Of a stretch of 64,000 nt of DNA, positions 59,974 to 61,140 are shown piece by piece; within the stretch, counting starts at the first letter, position 1, and every line of letters begins with the position of its first letter. A program made the position numbers and the translations under genes. The notes under the pieces are model-generated. The model was not told the DNA's origin. It did not search any database and saw nothing but the letters and a program-made list of their open reading frames with translations. Origin of the DNA: Veillonella magna DSM 19857 (GTDB lineage Bacteria > Bacillota > Negativicutes > Veillonellales > Veillonellaceae); assembly GCF_000428745.1 (NCBI RefSeq), contig NZ_KE386795.1, positions 580,692-644,691 of the forward strand, in the 5' to 3' direction.

Positions 59974-61090
59974 TTAATAGGAAAGATTAGCTTCTTTTTT
60001 CAAAAATCCTTCAATAAATTCATCCAGGTTACCATCCATCACAGCTTGCACATTACCGGTTTCAACACCGGTGCGATGATCCTTTACCATGTTGTACGGA
60101 TGGAATACATAGGAACGAATCTGGCTGCCCCACTCGATAGCTTGGTAGGTACCACCGATTTTTTCCTTTAATTCCGCCTGTTTTTCCAATTCTAATTCAA
60201 ATAATTTAGCACGCAATAAACGTAACGCCTGTTCACGGTTTTGAATCTGTGAACGTTCACTTTGACATTGTACGACAATCCCGGTCGGGCGGTGTGTCAT
60301 ACGCACGGCGGAGTCTGTCTTGTTAATATGCTGACCGCCGGCACCGCTGGCTCGATATGTATCTACCTGAACGTCCTTCATATCTAAATGTATTTCCACA
60401 GTATCGTCGATTTCCGGCATAACGTCTACAGCCGCAAAAGATGTATGACGACGGGCTGCCGCATCAAACGGTGAAATACGTACCAATCGATGAACTCCTT
60501 TTTCAGAACGTAAGTACCCAAATGCGTTTTCTCCTTTAATAAGGAACGTGGCACTCTTAATACCGGCTTCATCACCGGGCTGCTCGTCCATCATAGTAAT
60601 GCCAAAGCCATGTTTTTCTGCCCATCGCAAATACATACGGATAAGCATGGATGCCCAGTCCTGTGCCTCCGTTCCGCCCGCACCGGCATGGAATGTAAGA
60701 ATAGCATTATTCTTATCATACTCACCACTGAGGAGCAAGAGTACTTCACGTTTTTCCACCTCTTGATGAATGCCTTCTACAAAATCGGCAATCTCTTTTT
60801 CCATGGACACATCTTCCTCTTCGATGGCCATTTCCAGCATCAAGCGAGCATCCTCAATATCGTTAACCAACGATTTATAGCCTTCCACAGCATCTTTTAG
60901 CTGTGTCGCTTCCTGTGAGATTTCTCGCGCTTCTTCTGGATTATCCCAGAAGGTAGGATCACTCATCTTAACATCTAATGTAAATATACGGTCTTCCTTT
61001 TGAGCGATGTTAAAGTGAATCCCTCATTCCATAAATTCGCTCTTCCAGATTTTCGATGGGACCTTTCAAATCCTCTAGCAAATTTTTCAC
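59974..61090 (-). CDS. prfB: Peptide chain release factor 2, made by programmed +1 frameshift
   Basis: Recognises UGA and UAA stop codons. The product is about 371 residues. A short first frame starts at GTG 61090 (or TTG 61081), reads LLEDLKGPIENLEERIYGMRDSL and is broken by TAA at 61010-61012; after one base is skipped the second frame opens with NIAQKEDRIF and leads into MSDPTFWDNPEEA. RF2-specific SPF (RISPFDAAARRH) and the catalytic GGQ (GAGGQHINKTDS) are present. The reading across the shift aligns with known RF2 sequences. Confidence 0.95.
61009..61024 (-). promoter_or_regulatory. prfB +1 programmed frameshift site
   Basis: Minus strand AGGGAT, TCA, CTT, TAA, C. The internal Shine-Dalgarno-like AGGGAT is at the classical distance from the CUU slippery codon, and slippage to UUU restores the RF2 frame. 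The stop here is UAA where UGA is usual. Confidence 0.9.
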
Positions 61091-61140
61091 CTCTTTCCTT
61101 GGCAAACACCTTACGGTATCTACCGGTAAAACAACGATTA

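Follow-up and report, generated by a model that had tools for sequence, protein, structure and literature searches.

What can the autoregulatory frameshift of release factor 2 (RF2) sense when its in-frame stop codon is not UGA? The question is raised by prfB of Veillonella magna DSM 19857, which lies in a stretch of 64,000 nucleotides analysed here as a whole and referred to below as the window. In the published view, the near-universal UGA at prfB shift sites demonstrates that RF2 autoregulation is what the frameshift is for; in the portion of that survey dealing with stop codons, TAA is described as poorly tolerated and TAG as absent (PMC12421855). A literature search for a Veillonella release factor 2 frameshift found no paper.

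The prfB shift cassette in the window

On the minus strand the cassette reads AGGGAT-UCA-CUU-UAA-C (Table 1), after which the +1 frame, resuming at AAC (61011-61009), opens into a complete RF2. The +1-frame product scores 520.1 bits against the NCBIfam prfB model TIGR00020 (cut-off 370) and matches solved RF2 chains down to an E-value of 4.7e-128. The peptide of the zero-frame ORF, 23 codons up to the UAA, is MLEDLKGPIENLEERIYGMRDSL. The initial annotation had described the shift-site geometry (AGGGAT, a three-base spacer and CUU) correctly, and its UAA-C after the slippery codon is indeed what the letters at 61012-61009 spell.

This arrangement is that of the classical prfB of E. coli and B. 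subtilis (CUU UGA C): a short zero-frame ORF with RF2 in the +1 frame, a Shine-Dalgarno (SD)-like element three bases before CUU, a CUU-U slip before the stop, and C at the +4 position. By the known specificity of RF2, the stop is also one that RF2 can read. Unlike in the classical RF2-only loop, however, it is UAA instead of the RF2-specific UGA, so that RF1 can also terminate there. The SD-like element, AGGGAT as opposed to the classical AGGGGG, differs as well, in a form that is shared with UGA-bearing relatives. All duplex energies in this work were calculated with an assumed anti-SD sequence; the internal AGGGAT is predicted to pair with it at -8.4 kcal/mol, and the E. coli comparison site, in the sequence we take it to have, at -10.7 kcal/mol.

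Sites of this kind have been seen before. In the prfB survey of Prince et al. 2025, TAA accounts for 1.4% of 8,164 motif genomes (PMC12421855), and the consensus given by Antonov et al. 2013 is YTT_TRA_C (PMC3711429), which means that UAA sites were known in 2013. The CTT TAA C of the window stands at the same place as in the TAA variants and YTT_TRA_C sites of these two studies. Judged from the sequences compared, prfB of the window is best described as a UAA variant of the known +1 frameshift mechanism, and the variant is real and clade-fixed.

Table 1. Coordinates of prfB and of its shift cassette in the window
Feature	Position	Strand	Basis
prfB, whole locus	61093-59974	minus	
Shine-Dalgarno GAGGTGA of zero-frame ORF	61087..61093	minus	sequence; predicted anti-SD duplex -11.7 kcal/mol
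prfB ORF1, zero frame: TTG start, 23 codons, UAA stop	61010..61081	minus	sequence
TTG start codon of prfB ORF1	61081-61079	minus	sequence, after GAGGTGA
SD-like internal element AGGGAT	61024-61019	minus	sequence and 60-genome conservation
Spacer UCA, 3 bases	61018-61016	minus	same triplet in 60/60 order genomes
Slippery CUU, P-site Leu codon predicted to slip to UUU	61015-61013	minus	same in 60/60 order genomes
In-frame stop UAA replacing UGA, probable sensor codon	61012-61010	minus	UAA in 28/28 family genomes
+4 base C, weak termination context	61009	minus	kept across the order
prfB ORF2, +1 frame, remaining RF2, 345 aa	59974..61011	minus	NCBIfam TIGR00020 and solved RF2 chains

The stop codon across the order

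The order-level sample comprised 61 genomes searched with TIGR00020, of which 60 gave an RF2 gene whose shift site was read by script; the single genome with no RF2 match is 75% complete (G034). The totals were 45 UAA, 14 UGA and 1 UAG (n = 60). All 28 genomes of the window's family carry UAA, in the form AGGGATTCACTTTAAC. The second family, which we call Megasphaera-like on the basis of one lead and general taxonomy, has UAA in 16 genomes and UAG in one (n = 17), all GGGGATTCACTTTARC. UGA was found in ten of the 11 genomes of the third family and in all four of the fourth (UAA 0/4). Pooled by pairs, the first two families thus have UAA in 44/45 and the other two UGA in 14/15. The one UAA site of the third family (G039) comes from a genome that is 75% complete, and the contig bearing it measures 12.7 kb; the RF2 of G039 groups with the third family. 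The UGA relatives in the order share the rest of the cassette: AGGGATTCACTTTGAC.

Named Veillonella records (L040-L055; V. parvula, including strain SKV38 as L043, V. atypica, V. ratti, V. seminalis and others) turned out to have UAA in 16 cases out of 16. Two of them, V. seminalis (L041) and V. ratti (L048), have shift sites identical over 60 bases to those of members of the window's genus-level group, which suggests that the species of the window is close to these two. The Sporomusa and Pelosinus loci examined carry UGA.

A cassette at the same place, with UAA, UGA or UAG, is thus present in 59 order genomes besides that of the window, 44 of them with UAA, which excludes both chance and a private sequencing error. 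The idea that the UAA is an error or a lesion confined to the window's genome has a practically negligible probability and is refuted by the 45 UAA sites among the 60 order genomes together with the 16 named Veillonella records. UAA is not peculiar to this genome: two families have it as their usual stop at this site (44/45), and such sites are already in print (PMC12421855, PMC3711429). The initial annotation had named UAA as the rule in the lineage, together with a normal RF2-only response, as what would speak against its reading; the first half of this holds (28/28 and 16/17).

Prince et al. 2025 characterize TAA variants as randomly distributed and not broadly fixed in particular clades (PMC12421855). 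As far as this part of the survey goes, the description does not fit the window's family, in which UAA is fixed, and it differs from the near-fixation in the second family. By its spread, UAA appears to be inherited and to have been present already in the ancestors of each of the two families. In the RF2 tree the two families are joined at a support of 9, with a single UAA origin neither shown nor rejected, and at least three stop-codon changes are required.

Codon conservation, start codons and SD strength

The cassette codons GAT-TCA-CTT are identical in 60/60 order genomes. As a comparison, the +1-frame codons 1-300 with an invariant amino acid were taken, Met and Trp being excluded: only 1 of 102 such codons is invariant in the order genomes. 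Within the two UAA families (45 genomes), the cassette codons are invariant in 3/3 cases vs. 1/129 for the comparison codons. With six codons available for Ser and for Leu alike, protein-level selection alone is a poor explanation of the cassette identity. This codon conservation argues that selection maintains the frameshift even with UAA as the stop. The SD-like element in the order is AGGGAT in 42 genomes and GGGGAT in 18 (n = 60).

The same data bear on the possibility that the frameshift is vestigial and that translation of RF2 begins at a start codon within the +1 frame itself. A candidate does exist, namely an ATG at +1-frame codon 16, which is conserved in 45/45 genomes of both UAA families. 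However, its predicted SD is weak, -1.6 kcal/mol in the window and -3.1 kcal/mol in the UAG-bearing genome G053, the range for +1-frame internal starts in three genes being -1.4 to -3.5 kcal/mol, whereas the zero-frame start retains a strong SD of -9.4 kcal/mol or better in 45 genes of both UAA families. Given also the strict nucleotide conservation of the cassette, production of RF2 from an internal start is very improbable.

In the window's family the zero-frame start lies 23 codons ahead of the stop in 28/28 genomes (TTG 26, ATG 2). In the second family, the start chosen by the best SD is GTG in 15/17, with a strong SD before each. Taking both families together, TTG or GTG is the start by best-SD choice in 42 of 43 distinct UAA genes, one of the 42 (L022) being a tie between TTG and an adjoining ATG, and in the one UAG gene. 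A non-ATG start was considered as a compensation for UAA and rejected: UGA sites elsewhere in the class likewise mostly have TTG or GTG (22/24), and no link to the stop codon is seen. Non-ATG prfB starts are common throughout the class. The strength of the internal SD fared no better as a compensating feature, as the predicted energies, for one example gene per family, fail to separate the UAA families (-8.4 and -5.7 kcal/mol) from the UGA families (-5.4 and -5.3 kcal/mol).

What UAA and UAG sites may sense

The RF1 gene is intact in 11/11 genomes searched, that of the window included, which has an intact RF2 gene as well. The window's RF2 carries the Ala form, RASGAGGQ, whose Ala we take to be residue 246. 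In E. coli strains whose RF2 is of the Ala246 type, RF1 as well as RF2 decodes UAA (PMC5373646), and both release factors were likewise reported to read UAA in E. coli (PMC4989110). As UAA is read by both factors, RF1 would compete with the slip and RF2 output should track RF1 plus RF2. That RF1 can compete with frameshifting had been reasoned in the initial annotation, and the argument holds, with UAA read by both factors and the window's RF2 in the Ala form; the weaker loop that it also suggested would be a prediction.

The UAA site is likely to function in RF2 autoregulation by +1 frameshifting, with UAA as the sensor codon. A ribosome that arrives at UAA-C with tRNA-Leu on CUU would either terminate or slip one base to UUU; base pairing between AGGG and the anti-SD of 16S rRNA would aid the slip, and translation would resume at AAC and yield RF2. 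RF1 and RF2 would both compete with the slip at UAA, and RF2 synthesis would follow the combined activity of the two factors. RF2 output would respond to RF2 with a sensitivity of -(1-f)s at UAA vs. -(1-f) at UGA, where f stands for the frameshifted fraction and s for RF2's share of UAA terminations. Feedback by RF2 would accordingly be kept in a diluted form, scaled by that share. Frameshifting in vivo would be predicted from the conservation of the cassette, RF1 competition is expected from release-factor specificity, and the loop gain should behave as in the expressions above.

It may also be that UAA is nearly equivalent to UGA in function: RF2 would do nearly all UAA termination, the loop would be classical in effect, and a near-neutral change would have been kept by descent. 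We take this possibility seriously while leaning against it. PMC12421855 cites evidence for RF2 as the main reader of TAA in most bacterial taxa, and if this applies here, the loop would be a nearly normal RF2-only one. Apart from the stop, the cassette of the UGA relatives is alike, with no compensating change in predicted SD (one gene per family), and the change from UGA to UAA merely turns the junction residue from Asp into Asn. Against it speak the intact RF1 gene, the reading of UAA by both factors in E. coli (PMC5373646, PMC4989110), and the stop codon usage. The latter was counted on ORFs of at least 200 aa in 140-184 kb per genome, one genome each: the window's genome has TAA 69, TGA 28 and TAG 22 of 119 ORFs, G053 has TAA 56, TGA 16 and TAG 8 of 80, and the UGA relative G030 has TAA 46, TGA 28 and TAG 2 of 76. 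UAG is thus not rare in the window's genome (22/119 vs. 2/76 in the UGA relative), and RF1 is presumably needed there. These counts hint that RF1 has more terminations to carry out in the UAA lineages, in a sample too small for a claim. Near-equivalence and the sensor-codon model with RF1 competition overlap where RF1's share of UAA termination is small, and our confidences in the two overlap too.

The UAG site belongs to G053 (L035), a genome of the second family in a single contig of 2,652,760 bases, with a G+C content of 51.9% over 140 kb. Its prfB (shift site at G053:C1:2452090-2452105) reads GTG-CTA-TTA ... GGG-GAT-TCA-CTT-UAG-C, with a stop specific to RF1, beyond which the RF2 frame runs on intact for 350 residues (520.9 bits); the RF1 gene is retained. 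The RF2 falls inside the second family, on a branch of 0.095 compared with an end-branch median of 0.084. UAG is one mutation away from UAA and two from UGA, and the junction residue would be Asp, Asn or Ser with UGA, UAA or UAG, respectively. The case comes from one genome and may be a sequencing error. In E. coli, an extensive set of substitutions at the CUU shift site was studied with UAG rather than UGA as the stop, and the values agreed with those for UGA (PMC5009743), which indicates that a UAG site can work.

The sensor codon may have moved from UGA to UAA to UAG within the order, UAA being both a stable, clade-wide state that senses RF1 plus RF2 and a one-mutation bridge, and RF2 synthesis in G053 being gated by RF1 alone. 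We propose this tentatively and rate it a little below an even chance. If it is true, autoregulation in G053 has become cross-regulation, in which RF1 governs RF2 synthesis. The UAG case is new with respect to the survey of Prince et al. 2025, whose account of 8,164 motif genomes gives no TAG (PMC12421855). UAA kept across two families and a UAG relative qualify the published view (PMC12421855), and it is this pattern across the phylogeny that makes a site of a known variant more interesting. The order offers a natural series of UGA, UAA and UAG in otherwise matching cassettes, on which it could be tested to what the loop responds and whether RF2 has to feed back on its own synthesis.

Shift sites in the class, the phylum and Clostridia

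Elsewhere in the class, 25 shift sites, a non-random selection from the match listing and named records, all carry UGA. A pattern scan of 380 class genomes for UAA and UAG revealed RF2 sites only in the two UAA families and in G039; of 21 class places outside the order that matched the pattern, 17 were inspected and none was RF2. Among 398 genomes sampled from the phylum, the UAA/UAG pattern occurred at 79 places. Four of them are RF2, all in the window's order, and the other 75 gave no RF2 by tblastn with the window's RF2 as query (E up to 1e-3). Two exact GGGGATTCACTTTAGC matches in the phylum, in G543 and G441, looked promising and were ruled out in this way. Among the non-RF2 places, L334 is some 200 bases away from the end of its contig, and a gene could be truncated there. 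The scan patterns required GGG and a TCN spacer, and sites of other form may be missed.

In Clostridia, an order-level sample around L080 (146 genomes) gave 3 UAA and 17 UGA among the RF2 sites inspected, figures that do not represent a rate, UAA candidates having been picked preferentially. In a sample of 120 genomes of one clostridial family, at least 70 places with GGGATTCACTTTGAC and at least 11 with GGGATTCACTTTAAC were counted by hand among the matches listed. UAA thus makes up 11 of the 81 listed sites; all 11 are RF2 genes, the UGA places being counted as matches to the cassette. No GGGATTCACTTTAGC was found among the matches listed for these 120 genomes. In another clostridial family (48 genomes), G764, G765 and G913 carry GGGACTCACTTTAAC in RF2. 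UAA at prfB shift sites thus recurs outside the window's order. Among the matches listed for the 380 class, 398 phylum and 48 plus 120 clostridial genomes, no UAG in an RF2 gene was found besides G053, and the six UAG places listed in the two clostridial families gave no RF2 by tblastn. Added here to the published record are a family in which UAA is fixed and another in which it nearly is, a clostridial family with a high share of UAA, and the UAG site of G053, a kind of derivative absent from the stop codon account of Prince et al. 2025 (PMC12421855).

Several other deviations were noted on the way. In a large family of the class (f14), 25 loci among the best 30 class matches have no shift at the expected place and encode RF2 in one frame, and three other genomes of the family (L224-L226) retain a UGA shift. 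At the prfB site of L148 (G082, same class), CTCTTTTGAC, TTT and not CTT seems to precede TGA, and the SD-like AGGG is displaced. The prfB site of an uncultured Eubacteriales genome (L118) has A, not C, after the stop (CTTTGAA).
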